This document shows positions 28,318 to 63,129 of a DNA stretch of 64,000 bases, piece after piece. Under the pieces are notes generated by a model. The model ran no database searches. It was not told the DNA's origin and saw only the letters and a program-made list of their open reading frames with translations. The stretch lies in NCBI RefSeq assembly GCF_001705235.1, contig NZ_MCGV01000001.1, positions 4,282,181 to 4,346,180 on the forward strand. Reading direction: 5' to 3'. Both the position numbers and the translations under genes were made by a program. This DNA comes from Clostridium pasteurianum. GTDB taxonomy: Bacteria; Bacillota; Clostridia; Clostridiales; Clostridiaceae. Numbering within the stretch: the first letter of the stretch is position 1; each line of letters starts with the position of its first letter.

Positions 28318-28383
28318 TGTTTTATAATTTATCTATCTTTTTATTAATATTATTCTAAAAAGGATAAAGGGAAGTGTATTAAA

Positions 28384-29706: not shown

Positions 29707-29732
29707 TAGTCTTAATTGCAGTGTTTAAAGTT

Positions 29733-29791: not shown

Positions 29792-29803
29792 AACAAGTAA
29801 AAG

Positions 29804-30535
29804 TTATAGATAATTATATATAACTTTAGGCTTAGGAAGTGTTATATCTGCTATTATATGTGAACTAGAAATGATTTTTTTTACAGGTAAATCATTAAGT
29901 GGTGCCATAGCATGGTCAAATAATTGTAATCGTGCGGGACCTGTCCATGCTTCATGTACTGTTATGTCAGTGATTGTTGCACTTACAAGTTCACAAATTC
30001 TTGGACTGCCATCATAATTGGGTATTATTTTAAGCATATAGTTAGGTCGACAAATTTCATCTTTTGCTGCTTTAATATCTAATGCTTTATGTTTATATCC
30101 CATAGTAGCTGTTGCTACTCGTAATTTACCATATTCTAGTGTACCAACAAGAGTATCTGAGTCTACAAATAGTTTTGGATATCCTAATTTTTTAGGATAA
30201 GCACTAAGTTCCCTTCCAACAGCGATAGCAGGTTCATTATCTAAATACATCATATGGAGATAATCACCTTTAGTACCATTAAAACTTACGGGAATGCTCT
30301 GCCCGCTTTCTGTATAACAACCTAATCCGCTAGTATCATGCATTGCCATGATTTCAAATCTAACCAATGGTTTATCAACTTTTAATGGTTCTGGAACAAT
30401 TTTGCATAATGCATTTTTATCAGTAAGGTATATGATATTAAAATATTCACGATTATGAAATCTATATGGACCTCTAGGATATGCTGGTGAGTCTAATGGT
30501 GTGGTAAGTTGTTTAATTACTTCGCTTTTTAACAC
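29804..30535 (-). CDS. adc: Acetoacetate decarboxylase
   Basis: Enzyme of 243 residues that decarboxylates acetoacetate to acetone and CO2 through a Schiff base. The active-site Lys115 with neighbour Lys116 is seen in GRELSAYPKKLGYP, at exactly the position known for the C. acetobutylicum enzyme (244 residues). Start is GTG at 30535 with AGAGGCGA upstream. Its own transcription unit, convergent with adhE-ctfAB. The rest of the sequence is nearly that of C. acetobutylicum Adc from memory. Confidence 0.97.
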   Translation of the reverse strand: MLKSEVIKQLTTPLDSPAYPRGPYRFHNREYFNIIYLTDKNALCKIVPEPLKVDKPLVRFEIMAMHDTSGLGCYTESGQSIPVSFNGTKGDYLHMMYLDNEPAIAVGRELSAYPKKLGYPKLFVDSDTLVGTLEYGKLRVATATMGYKHKALDIKAAKDEICRPNYMLKIIPNYDGSPRICELVSATITDITVHEAWTGPARLQLFDHAMAPLNDLPVKKIISSSHIIADITLPKPKVIYNYL

Positions 30536-48747: not shown

Positions 48748-49335
48748 ATGAAAAGTTGTAATGAATTATTATGTAGAAAGGAAGATGATTTTTATTTCAG
48801 TTTTAATGTGGACAACCATGGTATTGTAAAGTGTGTTTCTGAAATTTTATTTAACATGATTAAGGAGAAAAGAGAAGTAGTAATTTTGTGTTTAGGTGTA
48901 GATTCTTTAATAGGAGATTCTTTAGGACCATTAGCAGGAAGTATACTTAAAAAAAATGGTATTGATAATGTATATGGTACTTTAGATAAAACAGTTAATA
49001 CTCATAATGTTTTACAAGTATTAAGCGAAATCTATGGTGAATTTCAAAATCCATATATTATAGTTGTTGATGCGGCTATAACAGCAAGTGATTATAGTAG
49101 TGATATTGTTTTAAAGAATAGAGGATTTGAACCTGGCGAATGCCTTCATAGTAGATTACCTAAAATTGGTGATGTTTCTTTAGTTGGTGTTGTAAACCAT
49201 GAAGACGAATATGAGAACAATTTTATAAGTCTATTAAAGCACTGTGATTTTGAAATAGTTCGGAAAATGGCTAAGGTGATTTCAAAAATATTAATTTTAA
49301 CATTTGAAAAATTAAAAAACAAGGAGAATTATTAA
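48748..49335 (+). CDS. yyaC: YyaC-family spore protein (DUF1256, GPR-like)
   Basis: Protein of 195 residues of the YyaC family, distant relatives of the germination protease GPR. Conserved parts: VVILCLGVDSLIGDSLGPLAGS, YGTLDKTVNTHNV, IIVVDAAIT and PKIGDVSLVGVVN. YyaC proteins are made during sporulation; their activity is not firmly established. ATG follows AAGGGGGA. Followed after one base by a degraded paralogue. Confidence 0.85.
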   Translation: MKSCNELLCRKEDDFYFSFNVDNHGIVKCVSEILFNMIKEKREVVILCLGVDSLIGDSLGPLAGSILKKNGIDNVYGTLDKTVNTHNVLQVLSEIYGEFQNPYIIVVDAAITASDYSSDIVLKNRGFEPGECLHSRLPKIGDVSLVGVVNHEDEYENNFISLLKHCDFEIVRKMAKVISKILILTFEKLKNKENY

Positions 49336-49336
49336 A

Positions 49337-49882
49337 ATGGAAAAGAATAAATATTTACAAAAATATTATTATGAAATAGGAATAGAAAAAGAGTTTTCAA
49401 AACTTTTATGCAATATGACACAACAAGATAGAGATGTGATTTTGCTGTGTATAGGAAATCCGACTATAAATGGTGATATACTTGCACCACTTGTAGGGAC
49501 ATTATTAGAAGAAAAAGGACTTAATAACATCTATGGAACCATAAAAAAGCCTATAGATAGAAATAATATAAAGATTGCTTATAATTATATACTTAATAAA
49601 TATAAAGCTCCATATGTAATTGTAATTGGGACATCATTTCCTTTAGATTTTCATGATGATAAGGAAGTCATAATATTGAGTGATACACCATATGAATTAT
49701 GGACCTCATATGGTAATTTGAAATTTGGAAATGTTAGTTTTAAGGCGATTTTTAATTTACTAGATGATTATTGTGGAATAGATATTATAAAAGAAGTTGG
49801 ATTAGGGATGATATATAAGTATGCAAGAGTTATTTTTAAATCTATAGAATTATATTTACATAATCAATATTATGTAAAGTAA
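49337..49882 (+). CDS. Diverged YyaC paralogue
   Basis: Protein of 181 residues aligned over its length with the previous one: VILLCIGNPTINGDILAPLVGTLLEEKGLNNIYGTIKKPI matches the YyaC core, but GDSLGP has become GDILAP and VVDAA has become VIGTS. The residues most conserved in YyaC/GPR are therefore changed, so it is probably inactive or has a structural role with its neighbour. Starts one base after it with AAGGAGA, so both are co-expressed. Confidence 0.7.
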   Translation: MEKNKYLQKYYYEIGIEKEFSKLLCNMTQQDRDVILLCIGNPTINGDILAPLVGTLLEEKGLNNIYGTIKKPIDRNNIKIAYNYILNKYKAPYVIVIGTSFPLDFHDDKEVIILSDTPYELWTSYGNLKFGNVSFKAIFNLLDDYCGIDIIKEVGLGMIYKYARVIFKSIELYLHNQYYVK

Positions 49883-50030: not shown

Positions 50031-50855
50031 ATGTTAGATATAAATAGCTGTACAGTTTTAAACAATGGAGTTAAGATGCCTTGGCTCGGATTTGGAACTT
50101 ATAAAATAGAATATAAGGATACTTCAACTCAATATATTAAAATGGCATTAGAAGCTGGATATAGACATATTGATACTGCTGCTGTGTATGGAAATGAGCC
50201 TATTGTTGGAAAAGCTTTAAACGAATATGGTATTCCAAGAGATAAAGTTTTCATAACTAGTAAGGTTTGGAACAATAAACATGGATATGATAAGACTTTA
50301 AAAGCATTTCAGGACACTTTAAGAAGGCTTGATACTGATTATTTAGATCTTTATTTAATTCATTGGCCTAAAAAATTAAATAAGGATACATGGAGAGCCA
50401 TGGAAAAATTATATAAGGACGGATACATTAGAGCAATAGGAGTAAGTAATTTTAAAATTCACCATCTTGAAGAAATAATGGAGGATAGTGAAATAGTACC
50501 AATGGTTAACCAAGTTGAATATCATCCTGAGTTTCCACAAACTGAGCTGCATGATTTTTGCAAGAAGAATAACATACAACTTGAAGCATGGGGACCTTTG
50601 ATGCAGGGAAAAATATTTGAGATACCTTTAATGAAATCTCTTTCAGAAAAATACGGAAAAACTATATCACAAATTGCACTTAGATGGGACTTACAGATGA
50701 ATGTAGTTACAATACCAAAGTCAATAAATGAAAATAGAATAAAAGAAAACTCTAACATATATGATTTTGAGATATCCAAGGAAGATATGAAAAAGATAGA
50801 AAGTCTTAATACAGGGGAAAGAATAGGGCATGATCCAGATACTATAACATTCTAA
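50031..50855 (+). CDS. Aldo-keto reductase
   Basis: Cytoplasmic NADPH-type reductase of 274 residues, AKR5-like. Catalytic tetrad visible: Asp and Tyr in GYRHIDTAAVYGNE, Lys in ITSKVWN, His in LIHWPKK. Cofactor-binding IPKSINENRIKEN is near the C-terminus. Similar to Bacillus YvgN/YtbE glyoxal reductases. ATG follows GGGAGGT. Monocistronic. Confidence 0.9.
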   Translation: MLDINSCTVLNNGVKMPWLGFGTYKIEYKDTSTQYIKMALEAGYRHIDTAAVYGNEPIVGKALNEYGIPRDKVFITSKVWNNKHGYDKTLKAFQDTLRRLDTDYLDLYLIHWPKKLNKDTWRAMEKLYKDGYIRAIGVSNFKIHHLEEIMEDSEIVPMVNQVEYHPEFPQTELHDFCKKNNIQLEAWGPLMQGKIFEIPLMKSLSEKYGKTISQIALRWDLQMNVVTIPKSINENRIKENSNIYDFEISKEDMKKIESLNTGERIGHDPDTITF

Positions 50856-50868
50856 TAATGTGTATAAA

Positions 50869-50888
50869 AAAAAGTTCCCGAAGGAACC
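50869..50888 (-). terminator. Hairpin oriented for minus-strand termination
   Basis: AGTTCC-CGAA-GGAACCT with eight A before it: only the minus strand has a T-run. The remaining gap to 51156 is AT-rich, with a small GAGAG/CTCTT hairpin plus T-run near 51065-51083. Confidence 0.5.
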
Positions 50889-51156
50889 TAAATAATAATA
50901 AAGTAAGTAAATAACTATTCAATAAAATTTTATATTATATTAAAAAAAAAATCAAATGAATGTTTAGGCTTATATGTAAAAATGTGTGAATATATTTTAA
51001 ATTTTTTGTGTTTATTTAGTTAAATATTATAGTTATTTAAAACTTTATAATGAATTGTACTTATGAGAGTTTCTCTTTTTTAAATAATATTTTAAATCAA
51101 TCTGGGTATACTATGACTGATTTAAAGATTTGTAAATAAAAAGGAGAGATGTTTAA

Positions 51157-51543
51157 ATGGGAGAAAGTCATAATGAAGATCATAAAGGAGATGTACGTAG
51201 TAATAATAACAATAGTCTCATGCGATGGTTAGGAAGATTGGCTCTTTTTGCAATAGTTTTAGCAATAACATCCTTTTTTACACCGGGTTTTTCAATAAGA
51301 GGCTTTTGGACATTTATATTAGCAGCAATCGTAATAACTGCATTAGATTATTTGGTAGAATCTTTTATGAAGGTTGATGCTTCACCATTTGGTAAAGGGT
51401 TTAAGGGATTTATTATTTCAGTTATAATAATATACCTTGCTCAATTCTTAGTACCTAATATGCATGTTTCAATAATAGGAGCTGTATTAGCAGCTATAGT
51501 TATAGGTGTAATAGATGCTATAATACCAACGAGGACTATGTAA
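51157..51543 (+). CDS. Small polytopic membrane protein (phage-holin-4_2-like)
   Basis: Protein of 128 residues: hydrophilic N-terminus rich in His/Asp/Asn (1-22), then four hydrophobic segments (about 26-45, 50-68, 84-102, 105-122). It resembles the family named after mycobacteriophage holins, which in Firmicutes are mostly ordinary membrane proteins such as YvlD. No lysis genes are adjacent. ATG follows AAGGAGAG. Confidence 0.65.
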   Translation: MGESHNEDHKGDVRSNNNNSLMRWLGRLALFAIVLAITSFFTPGFSIRGFWTFILAAIVITALDYLVESFMKVDASPFGKGFKGFIISVIIIYLAQFLVPNMHVSIIGAVLAAIVIGVIDAIIPTRTM

Positions 51544-51557
51544 CGATTAAAGTTTTT

Positions 51558-51583
51558 TAGCGGCGCTTTTTTCGCCGCTAAAA
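51558..51583. terminator. GC-rich hairpin between convergent genes
   Basis: AGCGGCG pairs with CGCCGCT around a T-rich loop; A/T tails on both sides. It stands between the holin-like gene and the 3' end of the split oxidoreductase gene. Confidence 0.65.
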
Positions 51584-51605
51584 TTTTATCATTATTTGTA
51601 AAGCA

Positions 51606-52107
51606 TTATTTCACCAATTGAGTATTGAAAATATTAGTTAAATTTAAAGAAGAAATTCTTTTTTCAATTTTTTCTCTATCTATTGTATATAGCCCCATTT
51701 CCTTCATTCTCGCAAAGTATTCCGCCCCAGCAAAAGTATATCTATTTCTACGGCCTTTTGTTGTACTCAATTTATAATTAGCATAAGAAATAATGTCTCC
51801 TATAGCAGTCTCATTAGGGAGTATTAAAGGTGGCATATTTAAAAATTTTCTTACAGCGTTATTACCGGCAAGACTTCCAGTACAGATAGCTTCAGTATGA
51901 CCTACAAACAAGCCACTCTTCTCTCCGCCGCAAAATAAATTATCAATACCCTTTACTTTCATATCGTTTGTTCTTGGAGCTACAGATAAATATCTTATGG
52001 AATTTCCTTTGCCTCCTGCATATGGATCTACAAATTTTGCATTTTCTAGTCCTTTAATTTTTCTTAATTTTTCAAGGGGGTAGAAGCATGTCATTAGCTT
52101 TGCATGT
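51606..52107 (-). pseudogene. FAD-dependent oxidoreductase, C-terminal exon-like piece 3 of 3
   Basis: The last 164 codons of the split oxidoreductase gene, starting after the His-Ala codons at 52106-52101. Visible: KGIDNLFCGGEKSGLFVGHTEAICTGSLAGNNAVR, the FAD-binding C-terminal motif of GidA/TrmFO-like oxidoreductases, and YTFAGAEYFARMKEMGLYT. In frame with piece 2 if the 3.9-kb element is removed. A nominal start (ATG 52121) lies in element DNA and has no ribosome-binding site. Not a true pseudogene if the element excises; sequence shows no decay. Confidence 0.85.
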
Positions 52108-53805
52108 GCGAGGTGAACCAAACTGCGGTGTGTTTTTGTCTAAGCCTACATTTTCAAATTCCAATATTTTACTCTTTTTATCAGATCCAATAAAGTTGAT
52201 TATGACTTTTTCCTTGTCTTTGTTAGAATTTCCAAACCAATAAATATTATCTATTAATGCATTTATAATAATTTTTTTCTTTTCGTGTGGCAGTGTATCG
52301 ATTATATTACAGTCATTTAATATATTTTCTATTATATTTAAATTTAGTTTAGCTGTTTTAGATTCTGAATGATTAAATCTAATATTAGTTAATTTATTTT
52401 CTATTTCAGTACATTCTTTTTTTATAGTCTTAATTTTATCAATAATTATGTTTTCAATTCCTGTGCCATTTGCAAGTGCATTTGTTAGTCTATCAATTTG
52501 CTTTTCCTTATTTGAAAGTACTGCATTTAATTCTAATTTTATATCTGATTCACTATTTTTCATCTGAGAACAATATTTTTGATTGAGATTATTTATGAAT
52601 TTTTTCTTAGATTTAGATAGTTTCTTTAAACTAAGAATCACTAAATAATCTATTTTATCAACTCTAACATTTGTATTTTTACAAAGTTTTTTGTGTGATT
52701 TTTGCTTCAAAGAACAAACATAATAAAATAATTTTTTGCCTGATTTAGAAACTTTGCCGTGTTGGACTACCATGTATTTTTTGCAATAACCGCATTTTAT
52801 TTTACCAGTTAATAAAGCATTATTTGTTTTACCTAATCTAGGGAAGGTATTTCTATTTTTATCAAACTGTTTTTGAACATTAAGCCAAAGCTCTGGATCA
52901 ATGAAACCTTTAATTTTTCCTACGGCAGCAAAGCGTTCATTTTTAGGATTTTTGATTTTAATATGTTTCCCATTTCTTACAACTTGCTTGGTTTTATTAT
53001 ATGTGAGAAGCGAATGAATGCCATCAGCTTCACCGTAAACTTTCCAATCATTAGCCCTTAAATAGTCTATAATATCATTATTTGCCTTTACGTAGACAGG
53101 ATTTTGAAGTATAAGTTTTAAACTTGATTTTTCAAACATGATATCATTTTTAGAGGTTAACTGATTTTCTGTAATATATACTTCTAATTTGTGTAGACTT
53201 CCAAGCTCTAAATATTTTTGATATAAAAATTTTACAAATTCACTCTCGTTTTTATTTATTTCAAGGGTGTGTACTTCACGTGTAAGTCCTCTATTATCAA
53301 TATAAGTTTTACTTTTAGAACTAAATCCAAATGGGATTTTTCCGCCGGTCCAGCGCCCATTTTTGGCCATCTCAATCATATTATCTTTTACACGCTCTGC
53401 TATAGTCTCGCGCTCAAGTTGAGCAAATACGGAAGCTATATAAATCATTGCTTTTCCAATAGGAGTTGAAGTATCAAATTGTTCTTTAATACTTATAAAG
53501 CTAACCTTATGTTCCTGCAATATTTCAAGTGTACTAGAAAAATCAGCTACATTTCTGCTTATTCTATCTAATCTATAACATACTAGAATATCAAATTTAT
53601 TTAGTTTTATGTCTTTAATCATTTTTTGAAATTTAGGTCTGTTTATTGTCCCTCCTGAAAAGCCTTCATCCTCGTAGATAGTAAACTCTATGTTATCTTT
53701 GTGTTTATTATTATTTATATAATCTTTACACATTTCAATTTGATTTTCTATAGAATCTCCTTTACCGGTAAATTTACTTTTTCTACTATATATTGCTACT
53801 CTCAT
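52072..53805 (-). CDS. Large serine recombinase (element 2)
   Basis: Site-specific recombinase of 577 residues. Resolvase domain (1-140) has the nucleophile Ser7 in AIYSRKS and the YRLDRISRNVADF active-site stretch. Recombinase domain about 165-300. Zinc ribbon: CGYCKK near 335 and YYVCSLKQKSHKKLC near 365. Coiled coil about 400-480. The last roughly ten codons run over the attachment core into the host gene, so the stop codon is supplied by integration. ATG 53805 follows GGGGG. Closely related to the recombinase of element 1 (both begin MRVAIYSRKSKFTGKG). Presumed to integrate and excise element 2. Confidence 0.92.
   Translation of the reverse strand: MRVAIYSRKSKFTGKGDSIENQIEMCKDYINNNKHKDNIEFTIYEDEGFSGGTINRPKFQKMIKDIKLNKFDILVCYRLDRISRNVADFSSTLEILQEHKVSFISIKEQFDTSTPIGKAMIYIASVFAQLERETIAERVKDNMIEMAKNGRWTGGKIPFGFSSKSKTYIDNRGLTREVHTLEINKNESEFVKFLYQKYLELGSLHKLEVYITENQLTSKNDIMFEKSSLKLILQNPVYVKANNDIIDYLRANDWKVYGEADGIHSLLTYNKTKQVVRNGKHIKIKNPKNERFAAVGKIKGFIDPELWLNVQKQFDKNRNTFPRLGKTNNALLTGKIKCGYCKKYMVVQHGKVSKSGKKLFYYVCSLKQKSHKKLCKNTNVRVDKIDYLVILSLKKLSKSKKKFINNLNQKYCSQMKNSESDIKLELNAVLSNKEKQIDRLTNALANGTGIENIIIDKIKTIKKECTEIENKLTNIRFNHSESKTAKLNLNIIENILNDCNIIDTLPHEKKKIIINALIDNIYWFGNSNKDKEKVIINFIGSDKKSKILEFENVGLDKNTPQFGSPRTCKANDMLLPP
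52100..52107. other. Attachment core of element 2, left copy
   Basis: TTGCATGT, identical to 55986-55993. On the gene strand it covers His-Ala codons (cat gca). Also lies inside the recombinase reading frame. Confidence 0.65.
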
Positions 53806-53951
53806 TTAGCTGCCCCCAGCAAGATATAAATAATGTTTACTATTTATTTTATTTATAAATTATCTAAATATATGATTATGTATTGAAATAATGGTAGCAA
53901 TTTTTTTTATGATACATAACATAAAGTAGATAACTATATGGAGGATTATGT

Positions 53952-54098
53952 ATGAAGGTTGTTATGGTATTACCCCAAAACATAAAAATGCTTGAGGATA
54001 AATATACTGAGGTGCTTGCATATGCTACTGCTGATACCTTGACTCATGATGAACTGGGATATTTGATTAAGAAATTAGAAGAGAAAAATAAAAAGTAA
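53952..54098 (+). CDS. 48-residue peptide, candidate directionality factor (element 2)
   Basis: Divergent from the recombinase, 146 bases away, with GGAGG ribosome-binding site. Helical, charged sequence ending TLTHDELGYLIKKLEEKNKK. Element 1 has a peptide of 52 residues in the same position whose end has the same pattern (LTxxExxxLIxxL). Small proteins beside large serine recombinases often control excision direction, as SprB does for SPbeta. No family recognised. Confidence 0.5.
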   Translation: MKVVMVLPQNIKMLEDKYTEVLAYATADTLTHDELGYLIKKLEEKNKK

Positions 54099-54115
54099 TC
54101 ACTATAGTACATGAT

Positions 54116-54185
54116 AAATGTAAAAAACTATTTACATTTTTTCTGACGAGTACTAGAATAAATAATGTAAAGAAGTTTTTACATT
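54116..54185 (+). promoter_or_regulatory. Promoter with twin palindromic operators
   Basis: TTTACA (54131-54136), 17-base spacer, TAGAAT (54154-54159). Two inverted repeats with the same half-site and same six-base spacer, AATGTAAA-N6-TTTACATT: one at 54116-54139 (extended by one base each side) covers the -35 box, the other at 54164-54185 lies just after the -10. Most likely the binding sites of the XRE protein encoded downstream, giving autorepression. Confidence 0.65.
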
Positions 54186-54221
54186 TATATTTCTTTAAGA
54201 ATTAAAATGGAGATGGTTACT

Positions 54222-54437
54222 ATGAGGAAAATGGATGAAATGGAAATGAGCATTAGCTTAAAATCAATAAAATCAGCATGGACTTATACAATATTATTTT
54301 TAACAGTTTGGCTTATATATAACGTTATTCATGCAGGAAACATTGGAATGGCGGGGTTTTTATTGATAACACAAAATCTTGTTATGATATTGGTGCAGTT
54401 TTTTTTGAAATGGAAGCTTGGTAGATATGAAAAATAA
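54222..54437 (+). CDS. Small membrane protein paired with XRE regulator
   Basis: About 71 residues: charged N-terminus (MRKMDEMEM), two hydrophobic segments (about 20-38 and 43-62), basic C-terminus. ATG 54207 is in frame, but ATG 54222 fits the GGAGATGG site. Overlaps the XRE gene by eleven bases, so translation is coupled. Such membrane-protein/XRE pairs are common in Firmicutes; the membrane protein may sense a signal and control the regulator. Confidence 0.6.
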   Translation: MRKMDEMEMSISLKSIKSAWTYTILFLTVWLIYNVIHAGNIGMAGFLLITQNLVMILVQFFLKWKLGRYEK

Positions 54438-54621
54438 TATAAGAATTTTAAGGAAACAACTTGGACTCAGACAGGAAGATGTAGCCAATACTTTGAAGGT
54501 AACAAGACAAACTATAAATGCTATTGAGAATAATAAGTACAATCCAACACTGGAGCTGGCAATGAAACTGGCTAGATTGTTACATACTACGGTAGATGAA
54601 TTATTTATACTTGATGAGTAA
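54427..54621 (+). CDS. XRE-family repressor (element 2)
   Basis: About 64 residues made up almost wholly of a Cro/CI helix-turn-helix: RILRKQLGLRQEDVANTLKVTRQTINAIENNKYNPTLELAMKLARLLHTTVDELF. ATG 54427 lies inside the previous gene; TTG 54418 is an unlikely alternative. Similar short regulators (YozG/YgzD type) are single-domain repressors. Probable ligand of the twin operators upstream. Confidence 0.8.
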   Translation: MKNNIRILRKQLGLRQEDVANTLKVTRQTINAIENNKYNPTLELAMKLARLLHTTVDELFILDE

Positions 54622-54957
54622 AGTGATTTTTATATGTCGTAGTTTTCAGAGGAATTTATGGTATTTTGAGTGCGAAAACAATATAAAAAGAAGCCTTTGT
54701 TTTTTGTGTGTGAGTTTTTAATTACGTAATGTACTTATTTGCGTAAGGCATTACTATTTTTTTTTGAGTTTTTTTGAACTGTCATCAGTAGTAATAGACA
54801 GCTCATTTGTGTTATTTAAGTTAATCTTATATGTTAGAGTGGATTTTCCTTTGAGATACACTAAATAAGTACATATTTATATAATTATTTACAATTTTAT
54901 TGAATAATTATGGACATTTTGTTAATATAATAGTGGACAAAAAAGGAGATGTTTTAA
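54622..54957 (+). other. Intergenic region in element 2
   Basis: Contains a terminator-like stem GTAATG/CATTAC (about 54727-54749) with a nine-T run, and, before the next gene, two copies of TGGACA around a TATAAT (about 54910-54940). No gene seen. Confidence 0.45.
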
Positions 54958-55311
54958 TTGAAAAAAGTAATAGGTATAGTTAGTATTGTTTTATTTGCAT
55001 TAATTTCATTTCAAAGTTGTGCTGCCGGAGTAGGAAATGCTTTGGAAAATAATAAAACTGCAAGTGGCTCAGCAGGCTTTATTCTCGCAGTATGTATGTT
55101 AATTGCAGGTATAATTGCAATAGTATCAAAATATAGCAAAGGTATGACTATTACATCTATAGTATTTTATGCTATTGGTGGTTTGATTGGAATTTGCAAT
55201 ATAGGTATTTTTAAGGATTTACAGATATGGTCTATATTAAGCTTTATATTTGCAGCACTATTAATATTCCATATAGTTAAAAATAAAGAACTATATAATG
55301 GTACAAAATAA
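54958..55311 (+). CDS. Membrane protein of unknown function (element 2)
   Basis: Protein of 117 residues with an N-terminal signal-like segment that ends in SFQSCAAG, possibly a lipobox, and three further hydrophobic segments. Start is TTG after AAAAGGAGA. Family not recognised; small proteins of this kind are frequent in clostridial elements. Terminator at 55315-55340. Confidence 0.55.
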   Translation: MKKVIGIVSIVLFALISFQSCAAGVGNALENNKTASGSAGFILAVCMLIAGIIAIVSKYSKGMTITSIVFYAIGGLIGICNIGIFKDLQIWSILSFIFAALLIFHIVKNKELYNGTK

Positions 55312-55314
55312 GAA

Positions 55315-55340
55315 AGGGAGCATTATTGCTCCTTTTATTT
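55315..55340 (+). terminator. Intrinsic terminator
   Basis: AAGGGAGCA pairs with TGCTCCTTT, then T-rich run. Confidence 0.8.
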
Positions 55341-55430
55341 TTTGACACAAATACGTAGCGAGGTATGCAATCTATGATTGGAAACTAAGTGGCATAATAT
55401 AAGAAAAATATATTGGGGGGAGGATTCTAA

Positions 55431-55895
55431 TTGGAAAAAATAATTTTAATAATAGTTGTCATCTTAATTGTATTAAAAGTTTGTATTGCAATATTTAGAG
55501 CCATAGGGGTAATTGGATGCATTGCCTTAGTACTTGCCATAGTTATTGCCTTAAATATGTTATATAGATATCTCAAAAAATTATCTGAACGAGAAAGTAT
55601 ATATGAAATTGCTAATGAAGAAATAACACATATAATAAATGACTATAAAGAATCTGATAGATTTTTTGAAAGAAATTTAAAAATGAATTTAGATGAAGAA
55701 CTACTATTTATATATAATATACAGCAATTTTTAAAATCTAAGAAGCAGGATTCTACTTTTAAATTTTTAAATGATGAAATCACTTTAAATATGGTAAATA
55801 GGAGTGAAGAAAGCGCAGAAATACTTGTTAACTCTAAACATAATTATACGCATGCAAAACGTTATCCTGTATCTATAAAGAAAATTGATAAATAA
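55431..55895 (+). CDS. Membrane-anchored protein of unknown function (element 2)
   Basis: Protein of 154 residues: two hydrophobic stretches in the first 45 residues, then a charged cytoplasmic or surface domain with no recognised family. Start is TTG after GGGGGGAGGA. Its end lies about 90 bases from the right attachment core. Confidence 0.5.
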   Translation: MEKIILIIVVILIVLKVCIAIFRAIGVIGCIALVLAIVIALNMLYRYLKKLSERESIYEIANEEITHIINDYKESDRFFERNLKMNLDEELLFIYNIQQFLKSKKQDSTFKFLNDEITLNMVNRSEESAEILVNSKHNYTHAKRYPVSIKKIDK

Positions 55896-55985
55896 ACAGA
55901 AAATAATAGTATAGGATTAAAAAAGGAAAGGAGAATTACTACTTCTTTTCTAAATACTTTTTTAAAGGTTGCAGTTTGGAACACC

Positions 55986-55993
55986 TTGCATGT
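55986..55993. other. Attachment core of element 2, right copy
   Basis: TTGCATGT, identical to 52100-52107; covers His-Ala codons at the end of oxidoreductase piece 2. Confidence 0.65.
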
Positions 55994-56520
55994 CCTGTAT
56001 CCAATAGTATTACATTTTCCGCAAATTCCTTAAGGGCATACTGCTGGCATACTTTGAGTTTTAATTTATCAAGATTTATATCCTCAGGTGGGACAGTTAG
56101 TATAACGACACCTTTTTCATCTAATTGTTTTACTATTTCGTCTGATAAGGTCTCTTTTGCAAGCTTGCAGGAACCACTGAAAGCACCTGGCATATCTGCT
56201 TCTCTTTCACCTCTTAAATCATCAACGCCAGCTCTTTGACTTATGCTTACTCTAGGACCAAAAGAAGGGCAGCGTAGTACGCACATAGAACATCCATTTC
56301 CGTACCTTAAACAATTTCCCATTGGGCCTGTAGATCCTGTCGTTTCTATAAACATATCGCCTTCAATGTAAGTGCCATCAGATAAAAAAATTCCTTCAAT
56401 TTTATTTTCTGTTTTCTTTACGTCAATTACTCTTTTTATAAGGTGTATTTTTATACCCATATTTATTAAGTATTTTTTAACTGCTGGTTCTATTTTATTT
56501 ACATCGTATAGCCAAGCATG
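55987..56520 (-). pseudogene. FAD-dependent oxidoreductase, middle piece 2 of 3
   Basis: About 176 codons between the two elements, following the His-Ala codons at 56520-56515. Reads WLYDVNKIEPAVKKYL, then GDMFIETTGSTGPMGNC, a Cys-rich NGCSMCVLRCPSFGPRVSISQRAG, and ENVILLDTGHA. The Cys motif may hold a cofactor or disulfide. In frame with pieces 1 and 3 across both junctions. The open frame continues 16 codons into element 2 and starts (GTG/ATG) inside element 1, but those ends are junk. No internal decay. Confidence 0.85.
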
Positions 56521-58147
56521 ACCTTGATTTATTGTATTGCGATAAAGTACTTTCAGAACCCCAAAGATAGATATATGCTGTATTATTAGTTCCATTCCAT
56601 TCAATTCTACGCACGAGGGCATTTATTATATTTCGTTTATCTTCAATTGTTTGAAGTACATCAAAGGTATCTTTAAAACTATTAAGGCAATTCATCAACA
56701 AATCAGAATTAAGCCGTTTATTTGTATTTTCTGTAGAGTTTAAATTCTTTAATCTGCTTTTTATATTTGATATTTCCTTACCAAGGCTGTCTATTTTAAG
56801 TAAAATAAATTTTGATGCATTTTGACTTGCGGAATTAGAAAGTTCATCTAAAAGTGCATTCATTTCTTTGTTTTTTAATTTTAATTCATGTTTGAGGCAT
56901 GAAACAGTGGAGGTAGAAGTACTAGCTGTATTTTTTTTATATAATTGAAGTTCTTTCAATATAGCTTTTTTGTCTAGTTTTTTTAGATTTTCTAGAATGA
57001 CTTTTTCCAGTTTATCACCCCGTACATTGGGATTAGAACACTTTGATTTTCCTGAATGTGCTTTCATTGTGCAGGTGTAATAATATATTCTTTCACCTCC
57101 ATCTTTTTTAGGCCTTCCATAGCTTACACGCATTGGAGCACCACATTCAGCACATTTTAAAATACCTGACAATAGAGATTTTTTAGAAGTTCCTTGACGT
57201 GGATTAAGCTTTTTAGAATTTTTATCTAAAATTTCTTGAACATATAACCAGGTATCGGCTTCAATTATTCCACTATGGTTACTTACTGCAGCTATCCATT
57301 TTGCCATATTATTGGTTTTGGATTGACACCTTTTTTTATTATAGATTAGTATTCCATTTTGATTAGGAGTACCACAAACTTGCATACCCTTATTTTTTAA
57401 GTATATAAAAACAGATTTATTTGACTTAACGTATACTGGATTTCTAAGTACATCGTTTATAGACATAGCAGCAAAATTACCACCGTTTTTTCCTTTGATG
57501 TTGTTTGAAAGTAAATATTTTAAAGTGAGAGCTATGGAATTTGTTTCAATATATTTATTGTAAATTAATTTTACTTTTTTTAGTTCAGTATTAATAGGAG
57601 AAAGCTTATACATGCTTTTTTGCTTGAATTCATCATTCAAATATAATATTTTTTGGCTTTTGAAACCTAAAGGGGTTTGACCGCCAAGCCATCTACCCAT
57701 TTTAGCTAATTCAATCATGTTGTCCTTTACACGCTCAGCTATAGTTTCTCGTTCAAGCTGGGCAAAAACAGAGGCTATATACATCATAGCTCTTCCCATT
57801 GGTGTGTTGGTATCAAATTGTTCTCTTATGCTTATAAAATCAATTTCCCATTCCACAAGTTTTCTTATTAGAGTTGAAAAATCTGCTATGTTCCTACTTA
57901 TACGATCAAGTCTATAGCATATTAAAATATCAAATTTTTTAGCTTTTGCAGCCTTAAGCATTTTTTGGAAATTAGGCCTATGAGTATTTTTACCTGAAAA
58001 GCCTTCATCTTCGTATATTAAAAAGTCAGTTATGTTTTTATGCTTTAGATTAACAGTACAATAGTTTTTGCATAATTCTACCTGGTTACCAATAGATTCA
58101 CCTTTACCTGTAAACTTTGATTTGCGGCTGTATATTGCAACTCTCAT
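56495..58147 (-). CDS. Large serine recombinase (element 1)
   Basis: Site-specific recombinase of 550 residues with the same domains as its paralogue in element 2: nucleophile Ser7 (AIYSRKS), YRLDRISRNIADF, recombinase domain about 160-290, zinc ribbon CAECGAPM and YYTCTMKAHSGKSKC, coiled coil about 410-470. The last seven or so codons (CLAIRCK) lie beyond the attachment core in host gene sequence. ATG 58147 follows GAGGTGATG. Expected to catalyse integration and excision of element 1. Confidence 0.92.
   Translation of the reverse strand: MRVAIYSRKSKFTGKGESIGNQVELCKNYCTVNLKHKNITDFLIYEDEGFSGKNTHRPNFQKMLKAAKAKKFDILICYRLDRISRNIADFSTLIRKLVEWEIDFISIREQFDTNTPMGRAMMYIASVFAQLERETIAERVKDNMIELAKMGRWLGGQTPLGFKSQKILYLNDEFKQKSMYKLSPINTELKKVKLIYNKYIETNSIALTLKYLLSNNIKGKNGGNFAAMSINDVLRNPVYVKSNKSVFIYLKNKGMQVCGTPNQNGILIYNKKRCQSKTNNMAKWIAAVSNHSGIIEADTWLYVQEILDKNSKKLNPRQGTSKKSLLSGILKCAECGAPMRVSYGRPKKDGGERIYYYTCTMKAHSGKSKCSNPNVRGDKLEKVILENLKKLDKKAILKELQLYKKNTASTSTSTVSCLKHELKLKNKEMNALLDELSNSASQNASKFILLKIDSLGKEISNIKSRLKNLNSTENTNKRLNSDLLMNCLNSFKDTFDVLQTIEDKRNIINALVRRIEWNGTNNTAYIYLWGSESTLSQYNKSRSCLAIRCK
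56515..56520. other. Attachment core of element 1, left copy
   Basis: AGCATG shared with 59811-59816 (gene strand cat gct, His-Ala). An alternative shared stretch is CATGACC at 56517-56523 and 59819-59825; both keep the frame. Confidence 0.5.
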
Positions 58148-58300
58148 TAGATCATCACCTCAATGAACAAGTTTTTTATTGAAAATATAGTCTGTATTAA
58201 ACTTATTCATGATGGTGGATAATATAGGACTAAAATACTATAAAAAATTAGAATAGTACAAACATCAGCTGACATAAAGAATATAGGGAGGTTATAGCAC

Positions 58301-58459
58301 ATGAAAGAAATAAAAGTAGAAGTTTATAATCCAACACAAGAGAATGAAACTGAATACTATAAAAGAGGAGCTATTTGCTTTGTTAGTGCTATAGCTAAAA
58401 AATTAACCTGCAGCGAAATTGATGAACTTATTGAAATTTTAAAAAAGGATATAGGCTAG
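58301..58459 (+). CDS. 52-residue peptide, candidate directionality factor (element 1)
   Basis: Divergent from the recombinase by 153 bases, GGGAGG ribosome-binding site. Sequence starts MKEIKVEVYNPTQENE and ends AKKLTCSEIDELIEILKKDIG, the end resembling the matching peptide of element 2. Position, size and pairing with a recombinase in both elements suggest control of excision; unproven. Confidence 0.5.
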   Translation: MKEIKVEVYNPTQENETEYYKRGAICFVSAIAKKLTCSEIDELIEILKKDIG

Positions 58460-58646
58460 AATTATACACTAATGAAATTAAGATTAGAAATTGAGCAACT
58501 TTGAAAAATATGTTTTTATAATTCAAAAGGTATAATATGTATTTGATTAAAAAATATTTTAACAATATAATAAATTTTACTTAAAAATTGACGATAATAA
58601 AGCTATAATACAAATATATTGTCGAATAGTAAAAAGGGGGAGGACA

Positions 58647-58955
58647 ATGAATAAAATAATGCTTGGAATTATGATTACAGCAGTATTAATTTTTACTGGA
58701 TGTTCAAGTAAAAGCACAAATAATACAGTTGCTACTAAAAAGAAAGTAATTAGTAATTCTGTTAGCAGTATAAAAAAGAATTCAAGCAGTACAAAAGATA
58801 CTACAGTTAAGGAAAAAAATAGTGATATTCATCCCTTATCGAAACAGCAAAAAAAAGCGGTCGACTCCAAAATTGATTCAGCTGTAAAAAATATCGACAG
58901 TATTTTGAAATCCATTCAAGATCCAAGTGATATTGATTTAAGTTCCATAAATTAA
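58647..58955 (+). CDS. Small lipoprotein (element 1 cargo)
   Basis: Protein of 102 residues with a lipobox (IFTGCSS, Cys about 19) and a Ser/Lys/Asn-rich body with a helical C-terminus. No domain recognised. ATG follows AAGGGGGAGG. Co-directional with the next secreted protein, 24 bases apart, so the two form an operon. Confidence 0.65.
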   Translation: MNKIMLGIMITAVLIFTGCSSKSTNNTVATKKKVISNSVSSIKKNSSSTKDTTVKEKNSDIHPLSKQQKKAVDSKIDSAVKNIDSILKSIQDPSDIDLSSIN

Positions 58956-58979
58956 AATATCTAAACGGAGGAAATAATT

Positions 58980-59705
58980 ATGAATAAAAAAAGAGTTTTA
59001 TCACTTGCATTATCTTTAGTAATAACGTTACCTACGGCAGCTTTAGCAAAGGATAAGAACAATACTGAACATGGACAGGGCAATAGTAATCATCAAGAAC
59101 TTAAAGTTAAGGATGAAAATGTAAAAAATGAAAATGCTAATGTGAATTCTTCAGTAAGCAAACAAAACAGCGAAAAAGGACAAGCCAATAGACAAGAAGC
59201 TGTACAGAAAGTGAATGACAAAAAACAAGCTGTAGCTGAATTTAAGACTGCAATGAAAGCAAAACATGAACAAATGAAACAGTTAAGGCAGCAGACTATA
59301 GCTTTAAGGCAGCAAATTGAGCAGAAAAGGGACAAACTTTCTTTAATTCTACAGGATCTTAAGTCAGGCAAGAAAACGTTACCTGAGGATACATTAAATT
59401 CATTAATTGCAATTTCTGAAACTATTCAAAGTGATGGTAATACGATAAAAGAAACAGCAGAGATAAACACTGAAGTTTCAGATACTCAATCGAAGGTAAG
59501 AAAAGCAGACTTTAACAATGCACTTAATTCTATGGATAAGGTAATAAGCAAAATGCAGACAAGGTTAGATGCTTTAAATAAGCTAAGTATTGATTTAGAT
59601 GAGGCGCTTAAAATTGCTAATACTGCAACTTTAGTTGAGGTTCAAAATAATGTATCTACAAATACAGAAACATCTAATTCAGCTGGAAGTACTGCTAGTG
59701 AATAG
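58980..59705 (+). CDS. Secreted coiled-coil protein (element 1 cargo)
   Basis: Protein of 241 residues with a signal peptide cleaved near AALAKD, an Asn/Lys-rich linker (about 25-65), a long coiled coil (about 70-130, many Gln and Lys) and a second helical region (about 150-215). No recognised domain. ATG follows CGGAGGAAA. Together with the lipoprotein it suggests surface-exposed cargo. Confidence 0.65.
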   Translation: MNKKRVLSLALSLVITLPTAALAKDKNNTEHGQGNSNHQELKVKDENVKNENANVNSSVSKQNSEKGQANRQEAVQKVNDKKQAVAEFKTAMKAKHEQMKQLRQQTIALRQQIEQKRDKLSLILQDLKSGKKTLPEDTLNSLIAISETIQSDGNTIKETAEINTEVSDTQSKVRKADFNNALNSMDKVISKMQTRLDALNKLSIDLDEALKIANTATLVEVQNNVSTNTETSNSAGSTASE

Positions 59706-59717
59706 TTGAAAATATAT

Positions 59718-59757
59718 TTTAGCATTTGGTATTTTTAGACCAGATGCTATTTTTTAG
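59718..59757 (+). terminator. Intrinsic terminator
   Basis: TAGCATTTGGT pairs with ACCAGATGCTA, then T-run. It ends the cargo operon 54 bases before the right attachment core, insulating the oxidoreductase piece. Confidence 0.85.
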
Positions 59758-59810
59758 TGATTTTAAAAAATTAATTTTAAATTTAGTCTATGTTGCAATA
59801 TTATAAGTGG

Positions 59811-59816
59811 AGCATG
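59811..59816. other. Attachment core of element 1, right copy
   Basis: AGCATG, shared with 56515-56520; alternative core CATGACC at 59819-59825. Confidence 0.5.
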
Positions 59817-60071
59817 TTCATGACCGGGGAAATCAACGTTTTTATGCCTTGTATTAGCATCTGTTATATTTATAAGATCACCTGCACCCATGGCAATTAG
59901 TTCTTCTGCGGCAGTATATCTACCATTGTTTCTCATTATTCCGCCAACGTTTCCAAGACCTAAAATCATGTCTGTTTTTTCATATATAGAAACTTCGTCA
60001 GCACCTGCTTTTTTTGCAGCTATTGCTGCTGCAGCACCTGACCATCCTCCACCTATAATTATAACTTTCAT
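59811..60071 (-). pseudogene. FAD-dependent oxidoreductase, N-terminal piece 1 of 3
   Basis: First 87 codons of the split gene, ATG 60071 after GGAGG. Contains the dinucleotide-binding GGGWSGAAAAIAAKKAG and the family stretch GLGNVGGIMRNNGRYTAAEELIAMGAGDLI, ending FPGHEHA at the junction. The open frame runs 16 further codons into element 1 to a stop at 59763. It follows the PyrK-like gene by 28 bases, so the two genes form one operon. Joined with pieces 2 and 3 the protein is 427 residues. Confidence 0.88.
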
Positions 60072-60099
60072 TAAAAATTACCTCCAAAATAATTAGTTA

Positions 60100-61083
60100 C
60101 TAAATATATCTTCTGCCCTTAAAAAGAAATCTTGGATCTATCTGAACTTTGCACATCCTTTTCATCTTATCATCATCATACATAATACTGCATGCACCAC
60201 AAATACCCTCTCCACAGCATAATTTTGCATTGTTGCAACAAGAAACTTTAATATTTTCATCTAGTACGTCCAAAATTTTGCTTATGAGTATATTAGGTCC
60301 TGAAACATGAACTAAATTTACCTTATTATACTTTGTAAAGTTTAGTAGAAAATCCCTAAAATCTTCTGAAAGCTCCCCATTATCAAGGGTATTTAAATTA
60401 TAAACATCTGCTGCATATTCTTCTATATATTTATTTATAAAAACATTGTTAAATTTCCCTTTATCGAGTATAAGAACTATTTTATTGCCGCTGGAATATA
60501 GTTTTTTCATAACAGGAACAGATGGAGCTTCTCCTATACCTCTCGCAATAATAAGGGATATGCCTTCTTTGCAGGAATATATATTTTTTAGACCTAAAAC
60601 GCCATTCCAGTAAGGACCTTTTAGTAAAATAGTGTCTTGCTCTTTAAGGTCATTTATACTTTTAGTTTTAATTCCTTTAATTTCAATAGCAACTTTTAGA
60701 GTATTTTCTTCGGACGAGGCCTCCATTATTGAAATTGGACAACTGTAGTATTTTGAACTTTTGGGTGGTCTTAAGAAAACATAACTTCCAGGATATAATA
60801 AGTTTTCTGCAAGTTTGTGTTTTACTAAGATTGTAAGTATAATCAAATTATTATCTATTGTTTCTTTTTTTAATATTTCACATGTATATTCTTCTCTTTC
60901 TTTTTTTGCTTTATTGAGATTCCACGTATATTCCTGATATATACAAACTCCTTTCCAATTTACGCAATCACAAAAGTTTTTACCGCTTAACTGGGAACAA
61001 AGTATGCAGTTACCAGCTTCGGCAAGGTGGCATGGGCAGTACTCCGTTCCACTGTCTATGCAGTCTATAATTTCATAATTCAA
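60100..61083 (-). CDS. PyrK-like FAD/NAD-binding, iron-sulfur reductase subunit
   Basis: About 327 residues. N-terminus is Cys-rich (YCPCHLAEAGNCILCSQLSGKNFCDCVNWKGVC). A ferredoxin-reductase-like FAD domain (about 65-165) and NAD domain (about 180-275) follow, and a C-terminal Cys cluster CCGEGICGACS near 300 fits a [2Fe-2S] site as in dihydroorotate dehydrogenase electron-transfer subunits. ATG 61116 is in frame, but TTG 61083 follows TGGAGGTG. Likely passes electrons from NAD(P)H to the oxidoreductase encoded by the interrupted gene downstream. Physiological role unknown. Confidence 0.75.
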   Translation of the reverse strand: MNYEIIDCIDSGTEYCPCHLAEAGNCILCSQLSGKNFCDCVNWKGVCIYQEYTWNLNKAKKEREEYTCEILKKETIDNNLIILTILVKHKLAENLLYPGSYVFLRPPKSSKYYSCPISIMEASSEENTLKVAIEIKGIKTKSINDLKEQDTILLKGPYWNGVLGLKNIYSCKEGISLIIARGIGEAPSVPVMKKLYSSGNKIVLILDKGKFNNVFINKYIEEYAADVYNLNTLDNGELSEDFRDFLLNFTKYNKVNLVHVSGPNILISKILDVLDENIKVSCCNNAKLCCGEGICGACSIMYDDDKMKRMCKVQIDPRFLFKGRRYI

Positions 61084-61332
61084 TATAAGCACCTCCAGTG
61101 TTTGTGAGAACATCAATAGGTCTCAATATTAGAATATTTACGTATTGACATAATTGTTACAATAATTCTTTTTCCTATGCTTTGTTGGAATTTAATACAG
61201 TGATATAATATAGGAAAACAAAATGTAACTTAAGACATTTATGTTCCAAGATGATGGCATCAAAGTGTTATGTTAGGCACATTGAATTAATTTTTAAGCG
61301 TAGAGAAATAATCTAGAGAGGTGGCATTTAGT

Positions 61333-61971
61333 TTGAATTATAATTTAAAGGATATAGAAAAAAATCCATGGCTTATAGAAAAAATTGATAATCCAGATGA
61401 GGAGCTATGCATTTTATGTGTAAAAAGAGCCTGGAATACATTAGAATTTATAAAAAATCCAACAGAAAAAACAATTAAAGCGGCTCTTAAAACTAAGGGA
61501 TGGGCTATTAAGTTTATAGATAATCCAAATGAAGAAATTCAAATTTTAGCAGTAAAAAGCGATTGGGATTCAATACAATATATAAAGGATCCATCATATA
61601 AAGCTAAGCTTATGGCAGTAAAATCAAACTGGGAGGCTATAAAATATATAGATAATCCTACTCTTGAAATTAAGAGAGCTGCGGTAAAACAAAATGAAGA
61701 AGCAATTATGTATATAGATAATATAGAAGAAAATGATAAAAAATATTTTGTAGAAGACAATGTAAAAACATTAAAATATATAAAATTTGAAGATGATAAG
61801 GAATTTAAAGATATTTTAATCAAAAAGCTCAGAGACAAAAACATTGAAAAACAATATGTAGTTGATTTTTTAAAAATAAAAGCTGTTGATTTCAATAAAA
61901 TAAGATTTATACACGAATATGGAAGTAAAAATGCTAAAATATATACAGTAGATTATAAATTGTCAATGTAA
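61333..61971 (+). CDS. DUF4116 repeat protein
   Basis: About 212 residues made of five or six repeats of 20-25 residues with the pattern (AV)K..W..I.YI.(N/D)P, e.g. AVKSDWDSIQYIKDP, AVKSNWEAIKYIDNP and AVKQNEEAIMYIDN; a helical-repeat scaffold of the DUF4116 type. GTG 61321 is in frame, but TTG 61333 follows AGAGAGGTGG. It lies 12 bases upstream of the MoxR-like ATPase and is likely in its operon. A TTGTTG/TATAAT promoter with 16-base spacer lies near 61180-61210. Confidence 0.7.
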   Translation: MNYNLKDIEKNPWLIEKIDNPDEELCILCVKRAWNTLEFIKNPTEKTIKAALKTKGWAIKFIDNPNEEIQILAVKSDWDSIQYIKDPSYKAKLMAVKSNWEAIKYIDNPTLEIKRAAVKQNEEAIMYIDNIEENDKKYFVEDNVKTLKYIKFEDDKEFKDILIKKLRDKNIEKQYVVDFLKIKAVDFNKIRFIHEYGSKNAKIYTVDYKLSM

Positions 61972-61983
61972 GGAGAACATGAA

Positions 61984-63129
61984 ATGAATTTTAAGGATGC
62001 AATGGAAGGGATAAAGCTTGTTTTAAAGTCAAATTCTGTACCTCTTTTAATAGGGAAAAGTGGTATAGGAAAGACTTCTTTAGTTAAAGAACTTGCTGAA
62101 AATGAAGGATACTATTATGTTAATATAGATGGCAATTTGTTAAAGGAAGGAGAGATTGGTGGTCTGCCGATGGTGCAGGATTATGAGAAGGACTTTAATG
62201 GCAAAAAGGTTTTTATGAAAAGAACAGTATATGCTGAGTATTATAAATTTATTGAAATAGATGAAGTTTTAAAAGAAAATCCTAGTAAAAAAATACTTTT
62301 ATTCATAGATGAAATAAATAGGTGTGAACACAGCGTACAGCAAGAACTTATGAACATAATCTTAAATAGAGAAATAAATGGATATAAACTAAAATCTAAT
62401 GTTCATGTAATTGCGGCTATGAACCCATCCAGTAAATATGATGAATTTGAAGATAGTGATTATCAGGTAAATGATATGGACCCTGCACAGGAAGATAGAT
62501 TTGTATGGATTTATCTTGATTCAGATGTTAATGCATGGATAGAATGGGGAATGGAATGTGTAAACGGTGAAAGAAGAATTCACTCAGAAATACTTGATTT
62601 TATAGCAAGTTTTCCAGAATACTTAAATACACCTAATTCCAAGGAATCCATAAAGGCTACACCTAGAAGCTGGGAAAGGGTTTCTCAAATATATAAAATT
62701 TATGTTAATGAAAAAGATTCTATATCATCAAATGTCTTTTATAATCTTATACGTGGAAATGTTGGAACTTCAATAGCTCAGGATTTTGTGAACTATATTG
62801 AAGAAAGCAAAAGACCTATTATAAAACCTGAAGATGTATTTAAGGATGATATAATAAGCCAGAAGTTAAAGGATAGAGTTAAAGGTGAAAGTCATTCTAG
62901 ATTGTTTTTGGCATCTAAAAATATTTTATTTTATCTTGAAAATAAAAATAATAGGAAAAGGGAAATTGAACTTTTTTCACAGTTTTTAAATCTTTATCCC
63001 AATGATTTAAAGATGGGAATAATGCAAAATATAAAAAAGGATTGTAGCAGTGAGTTTTATAAAGAACTTTTGGAAAATGATACTTTTTTAGAGGACTTTT
63101 TTCGTATGTATGAAGAAATAGAAGATTAA
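61984..63129 (+). CDS. MoxR-like AAA+ ATPase
   Basis: ATPase of 381 residues. Walker A GKSGIGKTS, Walker B ILLFIDEINRC, sensor 1 HVIAAMNPSSKYD and an arginine-finger region QEDRFVWIYLD. The C-terminal part (about 230-380) is helical. MoxR ATPases work as chaperones with VWA-domain partners; the next gene fits such a partner. ATG follows AAGGAGAA. Confidence 0.85.
   Translation: MNFKDAMEGIKLVLKSNSVPLLIGKSGIGKTSLVKELAENEGYYYVNIDGNLLKEGEIGGLPMVQDYEKDFNGKKVFMKRTVYAEYYKFIEIDEVLKENPSKKILLFIDEINRCEHSVQQELMNIILNREINGYKLKSNVHVIAAMNPSSKYDEFEDSDYQVNDMDPAQEDRFVWIYLDSDVNAWIEWGMECVNGERRIHSEILDFIASFPEYLNTPNSKESIKATPRSWERVSQIYKIYVNEKDSISSNVFYNLIRGNVGTSIAQDFVNYIEESKRPIIKPEDVFKDDIISQKLKDRVKGESHSRLFLASKNILFYLENKNNRKREIELFSQFLNLYPNDLKMGIMQNIKKDCSSEFYKELLENDTFLEDFFRMYEEIED

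Follow-up and report, generated by a model that had tools for sequence, protein, structure and literature searches.

The closest described systems are genes interrupted by integrated elements, and the comparisons made here draw on partial texts of the papers cited. In Clostridioides difficile, the coding sequence of sigK is interrupted by skinCd, which carries a large serine recombinase and a small directionality factor; the recombinase is constitutive rather than sporulation-specific, and the factor, which has a SpoIIID box, is under the control of sigma-E and SpoIIID (PMC5025042). In Bacillus cereus, gin is a small non-phage element with serine recombinases (three genes) and a short shared core within an inverted repeat, and its excision restores the coding gene gerE (PMC5595907). 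The prophage SPbeta splits spsM in Bacillus subtilis, a mother-cell gene that is reconstituted in a terminal cell, and a series from phage to remnant is described; vfbin in spoVFB and vrin in spoVR are named alongside it (PMC4191935). The yin element of Clostridium botulinum, prophage-like and with a large serine recombinase, has a 14-bp repeat at its ends and cuts yabG, a late mother-cell gene (PMC10747680). Diverse recombinases also converge on one conserved site in magnesium chelatase-like and prolyl isomerase genes, for which the available text claims no developmental use (PMC10083194). The locus described here lies in a stretch of 64,000 nucleotides from Clostridium pasteurianum (contig NZ_MCGV01000001.1, positions 4,282,181 to 4,346,180), referred to as the window. 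It contains a gene for a flavin adenine dinucleotide (FAD)-dependent oxidoreductase that is split by two elements, A and B. The results reveal that this gene is a recurrent target at three sites across the Clostridiaceae.

The oxidoreductase gene lies on the minus strand in three pieces. Piece 1 (59811..60071) comprises codons 1-87, ends in His-Ala and corresponds to positions 1-76 of the GIDA profile; piece 2 (55987..56520) runs for 178 codons from His-Ala to His-Ala; piece 3 (51606..52106) starts with His-Ala and has 166 codons and a stop. These codon counts include the His-Ala codons shared at each side, which are CAT GCT at the junction of pieces 1 and 2 and CAT GCA at that of pieces 2 and 3. 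An earlier, sequence-only reading of the window had proposed that the pieces form one continuous enzyme, free of stops and in frame across both junctions. The translations of the three pieces contain no internal stops, and intact homologues bear out the remainder of the proposal. Genome contigs were scanned with piece 2 and the best 80 loci were kept for end-to-end mapping. In 75 of the 80, including that of C. hydrogenum (L031), the three pieces are contiguous, with an exact 6-nt His-Ala overlap at both junctions and one codon register. Four of the 75 are cut further on, within piece 3 (L047, L074, L086 and L104). In the five exceptions piece 1 was not nearby (L045, L055, L108), piece 3 was not nearby (L064) or the locus met a contig edge (L089). 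Because 75 of 80 loci run across both junctions, the doubt raised with the original proposal, that an intact homologue might not exist, is answered. The gene was found in 51 of 58 relatives. Relatives thus have this coding gene uninterrupted, and in the window its flanks share one frame, as for targets of the skin and gin type. Several genomes, e.g. G012, G013, G032 and G144, also have a second, divergent, intact copy of the oxidoreductase (roughly 49-63% identity).

Each gap in the gene holds one large serine recombinase between attL- and attR-like ends, and the proposal that two separate serine-recombinase elements split the gene stands. Element B, at site 1, occupies 56521..59816 (3,296 bp between identical core positions) and has an orthologous element in a relative, genome G003. 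Its minus-strand cores both read CATGCT: the 5' core (attL-like) lies at 59811..59816, with an arm at 59810-59791, and the 3' core (attR-like) at 56515..56520, with an inverted arm at 56544-56531. Element A, at site 2, occupies 52107..55992 (3,886 bp between identical core positions). Its minus-strand cores read CATGCA, at 55987..55992 on the 5' side (arm 55983-55967) and 52101..52106 on the 3' side (inverted arm 52130-52111). Recombinase B (56495..58147, minus; PF00239, PF07508, PF13408) belongs to the site-1 clade and its 3' end crosses into piece 2, and recombinase A (52072..53805, minus) belongs to the site-2 clade (100/100) and crosses into piece 3; the frame of each thus overlaps the 3' junction. 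Both have the Resolvase N-domain, Recombinase domain and zinc ribbon of large serine recombinases and match the phrog_95 integrase family, and the combination with att-type ends is that of skin- and gin-type elements. The NCBIfam equivalog cut-off for the SCCmec recombinases CcrA/B/C (700-900 bits) was not reached, the best score being 146.5 bits. The best matches in a phage collection, 47% and 46% identical, were to a Terrisporobacter phage. The two elements had been described as related, which needs correction. Since their recombinases are 43% identical and fall in different site-specific clades, they are only distant relatives.

Recurrence was surveyed by searching 206 genomes of the family for matches to the intact C. 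hydrogenum protein, and the counts of gene presence given from here on hold among the matches listed. The gene was found in 188 of the 206 genomes. Forty-five of the 188, chosen by eye for weak best E-values, were searched again, a selection by which further split genomes may have been missed. At least 37 elements with boundaries read were found in at least 28 of the 188 genomes, in 12 genera, counts to which the window contributes. Each of the 37 is at one of three sites in the gene, which are numbered on the C. hydrogenum protein: His85-Ala86 (site 1, 14 elements), His261-Ala262 (site 2, 11) and Thr331-Glu332-Ala333 (site 3, 12). Eight genomes have at least two elements each (G000, G003, G073, G074, G146, G169, G177 and G186). 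G003 has three, namely the orthologue of element B, a 53-kb prophage at site 2 that bears endolysin and tail-fibre genes, and a 4-kb element. By estimate, the smallest element measures about 3 kb (G172) and the largest about 80 kb (G209). The 37 do not include genomes in which the pieces lie on different contigs, which look split at site 2 or 3 but are unconfirmed (G065, G081, G084, G087, G088, G098, G101, G104, G113, G114 and G122; the contig end of G113 spans only 172 bases), loci cut by contig ends (G107, G108, G110, G189) or near full-length matches (G060, G227). Other splits across contig ends, outside the 37, are likely. Because the same sites recur in other genomes, chance and assembly error are excluded as the origin of the pattern. 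It was considered that site-3 elements bring in a foreign 3' end, given the low identity of the last piece; this was rejected, the region being equally variable in 26 intact rows (mean 0.61). Separately, a PF04020 membrane protein gene lies directly 3' of the split gene (51157-51543, plus), and a homologue 77% identical to it lies inside the site-3 element of G003 (L197 227-613). That element may have acquired, or donated, this neighbour gene.

The sites are matched by the recombinases. In the DNA read, each of the 37 elements has exactly one strong recombinase match (at least 337 bits), which adjoins the boundary in 35 and lies 1-2 kb inside in two (G073 and G074, site 3). Its orientation relative to the gene is the same in 20 and opposite in 17. 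A tree of the 37 recombinases requires two changes of site label, the minimum for three sites, which was matched in none of 200 shuffles. Site 2 forms one clade (100/100), site 1 one side of a branch (75/97) and site 3 two groups. Recombinase B is sister to that of the site-1 element of G003, and recombinase A is sister to that of the 53-kb G003 prophage, which indicates a recent common ancestry of element A with a full prophage. Element A looks like a reduced prophage and has retained a phage-type helix-turn-helix (HTH) repressor gene (54418..54621, plus) and a phrog_9418 gene (54958..55311, plus).

The ends follow the same division. When left and right ends were laid on the reference codons, the site-1 core CATGC was identical at both ends in 12 of 14 elements and the ATGC-type core of site 2 in 9 of 11 (columns 24-27), while the looser, GAAGC-type core of site 3 was identical at columns 25, 27, 28 and 30 in 12 of 12. 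Variant cores match at both ends, as with GATGC at site 2 of G003 and AATGC at site 1 of G124. Beyond the core, the element sides are inverted repeats, e.g. TGTTGCAGTTTTGTTCAC and GTGAACAAAACTGCAACA at site 2. A 112-kb viral record contains exactly such an inverted pair of site-2 type around the core. This attP is intact, lies next to a recombinase that is 64% identical to recombinase A and is, in a relative, the expected unintegrated form. In this record (L220 1474-3477) the recombinase frame reads through attP into an HTH repressor gene as one frame of 667 codons, a fusion that integration would cut. A single match to a site-1 attP in viral contigs (L219) was taken as chance, the genes around it looking unrelated.

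Each window element also encodes a small divergent open reading frame (ORF) that is a candidate directionality factor. That of element B has 52 amino acids (58301..58459, plus) and is 54% identical to its homologue in the G003 element; that of element A has 48 (53952..54098, plus). Neither has a match in Pfam. A profile was built from four seeds, including the ORF of element B, and applied with a cut-off of E below 0.01. It recovered the ORF of element A, a non-seed (E 2.8e-11), and in total 12 candidates of 48-58 amino acids, each divergent from the recombinase and 78-319 nt upstream of it, among the 37 elements; eight are non-seeds, and all three sites are represented. A GTA[AG]C[AT] box lies upstream of 6 of the 12 candidates (background 6.4%) and of 4 of the 37 recombinases. 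A promoter of the form AC-N15-17-[AC]ATANNNTA lies upstream of 5 of the 12 (background 2.4%) and of 3 of the 37, and the probabilities for both patterns are too favourable because the patterns were chosen post hoc and 4 of the 12 sequences are two close pairs. The direction of the difference, with enrichment at the candidate factors and none at the recombinases, fits the division of control in skinCd. The sequence upstream of recombinase A weakly resembles the promoter of the oxidoreductase operon described below (23/30; 1 of 60 shuffles as good), and that upstream of recombinase B does not.

The sequence-only reading had also guessed at a link to sporulation, for which the evidence is indirect and consists of gene co-occurrence, a SpoIIID-like box and the candidate-factor promoters just described. 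SpoIVA was found in 194 of the 206 genomes. The oxidoreductase gene is present in 186 of these 194 and in 2 of the 12 genomes that lack spoIVA, and the assemblies of those two are 78% and 70% complete. Four SpoIVA-less genera (g6, g12, g58, g60) are wholly without it. The operon begins with a partner gene (60100..61083, minus, TTG start) encoding an FAD/NAD (nicotinamide adenine dinucleotide)-binding electron-transfer protein, and its conserved promoter region (61125..61161, minus) has a SpoIIID-like TGTAACAAT at 61161-61153 and an AT-rich, -10-like block at 61138-61125. This TGTAACAAT equals in letters the SpoIIID site of the skinCd directionality factor gene (PMC5025042). A first assignment of the promoter to sigma-K was replaced by SpoIIID-like after comparison with the motif in the same source; in C. 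difficile the -35 element has ATA in sigma-E promoters and AC in sigma-K promoters (PMC3789822). The pattern GTAACA-N15/16-AATAnnYTAATAnTA was scored against 225 random segments drawn from the same loci. The region upstream of the partner gene exceeds their 95th percentile in 54 of 76 loci, and exceeds the single best random segment in only 7 of 76. Used as a calibrator, the yabG gene of the window species matches the operon promoter in GTAACA and in spacing and differs from it in having the typical CATA at -10. Of 39 relatives, 36 have YabG.

Two further observations concern sporulation genes. In G001 (C3) and G002 (C2), part of the yabG 3' end (residues 215-280) occurs again some 10-15 kb from the full gene, perhaps as the trace of a yin-like element. 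At 48748-49882 (plus) the window has two DUF1256 genes in tandem (PF06866), which we take to be YyaC-like, and a similar pair was seen by eye in L031 (11333-12569). The DUF1256 family is linked to sporulation.

Taken together, the most probable explanation, at about 0.72, is a regulated, mother-cell-specific excision of both elements, similar to skin and with a new target gene. We infer the excision, its timing and the role of the small ORF from sequence. A sporulation gene would have been interrupted by two independently acquired, phage-derived integrative elements that were reduced to 3.3 and 3.9 kb. A mother-cell promoter would lead to production of the small element-encoded directionality factor, which would switch each recombinase from integration to excision. 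Recombination of attL with attR at the CATGC cores would then remove each element, so that the flavin enzyme would again be encoded in one frame, next to its electron-transfer partner. As the altered chromosome would die with the mother cell, the elements would be inherited through the spore at low cost. This would account for the repeated hits on the gene at three conserved sites.

Several results count against regulated excision in the mother cell. Eight of the 194 spoIVA-bearing genomes lack the oxidoreductase gene. A clear promoter motif is missing in 22 of the 76 loci, and in 80% of the good sites the -10 block begins with A, where mother-cell promoters have C. A scan of the window species' own genome with the motif was unspecific (9 matches against 6 in a reversed control); the matches mostly do not precede recognisable sporulation genes, and they were not used as evidence. 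The small ORF was recovered in only 12 of the 37 elements, and the post hoc choice of its promoter patterns has been mentioned. Finally, some elements carry unequal cores at their two ends, namely those of G169 and G177 for site 1 and those of G068 and G169 for site 2; the site-1 elements of G169 and G177 (L169-L172) may be stuck or use another crossover.

The likeness to skin in sigK and to SPbeta in spsM, noted at the outset from the layout alone, is upheld by the comparison of anatomy and codon register. The window elements share with skinCd the interrupted coding sequence and the large serine recombinase, and their small divergent ORFs are candidate counterparts of its directionality factor with a SpoIIID box. 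In contrast to skinCd, with its sigma-factor target, one element and one site (PMC5025042), they concern a flavin enzyme, with two elements in the window and three sites in the family. Like gin they are small, non-phage elements with a core within an inverted repeat, and restoration of the gene would parallel that of gerE. Unlike gin, a Bacillus element with another target (PMC5595907), each has one recombinase and has full-size prophages as relatives at the same site. The series from phage to remnant recalls SPbeta, and reconstitution in a terminal cell is proposed here too; for SPbeta, vfbin and vrin the available text reports one element per gene, and the gene and clade differ (PMC4191935). 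As with yin, a Clostridium gene is cut by a prophage-derived element with a large serine recombinase, whereas yin is reported as unique (PMC10747680) and the present target, a different gene, recurs in many species. The convergence of diverse recombinases resembles that on magnesium chelatase-like and prolyl isomerase genes (PMC10083194), from which the three sites, the decayed elements and the conserved split gene set this case apart. The kind of system is thus already known from skin, SPbeta, vfbin, vrin, gin and yin, as far as these partial sources describe them (PMC5025042, PMC4191935, PMC5595907, PMC10747680). What is new is the target gene, the three sites in one gene, the presence of several elements at once and the natural series from prophage to remnant. 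A literature search in one library with chosen terms returned no paper on this gene as an element target.

The rival that survives best, though an unlikely one, is that the gene is a passive prophage hotspot, which is off in lysogens and restored only when phage induction excises the insert, with no developmental use. Conserved genes are frequent targets of large serine recombinases, with no developmental role involved (PMC10083194), and many of the 37 elements are prophage-sized, the one in G003 with endolysin and tail-fibre genes among them. Since convergence on a gene is by itself common among these recombinases, the evidence from selection and promoters matters. Ratios of nonsynonymous to synonymous change (dN/dS) were calculated by the Nei-Gojobori method, with the pieces of the window and G003 compared apart and counts summed over 416 codons. 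The split gene gave a dN/dS of 0.049 (0.03 to 0.10 for single pieces) at a proportion of synonymous differences (pS) of 0.68, values to be read with caution given the near-saturated synonymous sites and the simplicity of the method. The intact pair from C. hydrogenum and C. guangxiense gave 0.074, the recombinases 0.13 and 0.23, and the cargo genes 0.23 and 0.40 (window versus G003). Neither the window species nor G003 has internal stops in the pieces, which are under strong purifying selection. Element B and the G003 site-1 element have the same cargo order and share the 52-amino-acid ORF, a lipoprotein-like protein of 102 amino acids (58647..58955, plus; 39% identical) and a protein of 241 amino acids with a signal-like start and no match in Pfam (58980..59705, plus; 55%). 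Because these are shared and the recombinases are sisters, element B is probably older than the split between the two species. The gene has thus been cut in both lineages yet is as well kept as in intact pairs, and therefore must be made whole at some time. Moreover, a recombinase, ends and a small ORF are retained in elements far below the size of a phage, namely the two of the window and several others.

A broader form of regulated mother-cell excision, for and against which we see about equal odds, is that the gene is a safe harbour with three sockets, i.e. three conserved coding sites each with its own clade of phage recombinases. Phages would be tolerated there because only a mother cell that is about to die needs the gene. 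They would shrink to minimal self-excising inserts and stack up, as with the two in the window and three in G003, so that the enzyme would be produced only after every one of several independent excisions had succeeded.

Excision could instead be governed by another programme, such as the solvent shift, redox state or DNA stress, and take place in vegetative cells. The gene encodes a redox enzyme whose partner is a flavin/iron-sulphur protein, the window species carries what we take to be a solvent operon, and at every time point yin of C. botulinum was excised in a fraction of the population (PMC10747680). Against this, the gene is lost along with spoIVA, the operon has a SpoIIID-like box and the candidate factors have mother-cell-like promoters. 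Elements excised in vegetative cells would also tend to be lost, but element B has persisted. Such a programme seems improbable, though less so than the idea that the gene is dead and its pieces are decaying. That idea might appeal because neither piece 2 nor piece 3 has its own start, both frames running in from the recombinase genes, but it is hard to credit given the low dN/dS of every piece and the absence of internal stops in both species. An error of assembly or binning is refuted by the recurrence of the same sites, recombinase clades and arms in 28 genomes.

The enzyme itself is predicted to have a GidA/TrmFO-like fold, without assignment to either equivalog. The natural C. hydrogenum protein was modelled (28 rows; mean predicted local distance difference test score, pLDDT, 81.9, with residues 147-172, 196-199 and 290-299 below 50), and the model best matches the GidA/MnmG and TrmFO folds (3cp8, E 4.9e-17). 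The NCBIfam equivalog cut-offs for TrmFO and MnmG (GidA) were not reached (39.9 versus 428.65 and 32.5 versus 524.85 bits). The partner protein shows features of FAD binding and of electron transfer, and many of its cysteines are invariant. Its C. hydrogenum orthologue, scored in place of the window copy, belongs to NF004470 (sulfide/dihydroorotate dehydrogenase-like; 477.8 bits against a cut-off of 313). A scan of 50500-62000 with Rfam returned no match. Beside the operon lie a DUF4116 repeat protein gene (61321-61971, plus) and an AAA ATPase gene (PF07728; 61984-63129, plus), and by eye similar genes flank the operon in G003 (L111). Elsewhere in the window (25735-30535), a bifunctional aldehyde/alcohol dehydrogenase gene and a convergent acetoacetate decarboxylase gene are separated by two genes, presumably ctfA and ctfB of a solvent operon.

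If regulated excision in the mother cell is correct, a metabolic flavin enzyme would join sigK, spsM, spoVFB, spoVR, gerE and yabG among the few sporulation genes that are put together by DNA rearrangement. Among the systems compared here, it would be the first with several elements per gene and dozens of natural replicates. Because the elements at these three sites range from an 80-kb prophage to a 3-kb remnant, the way in which a phage becomes a domesticated switch can be tested directly, and the 37 recombinases with their matched ends are a ready set of site-specific integrases. G003 is probably C. acetobutylicum ATCC 824; if so, that transition can be tested on the triply split gene in a standard industrial strain.

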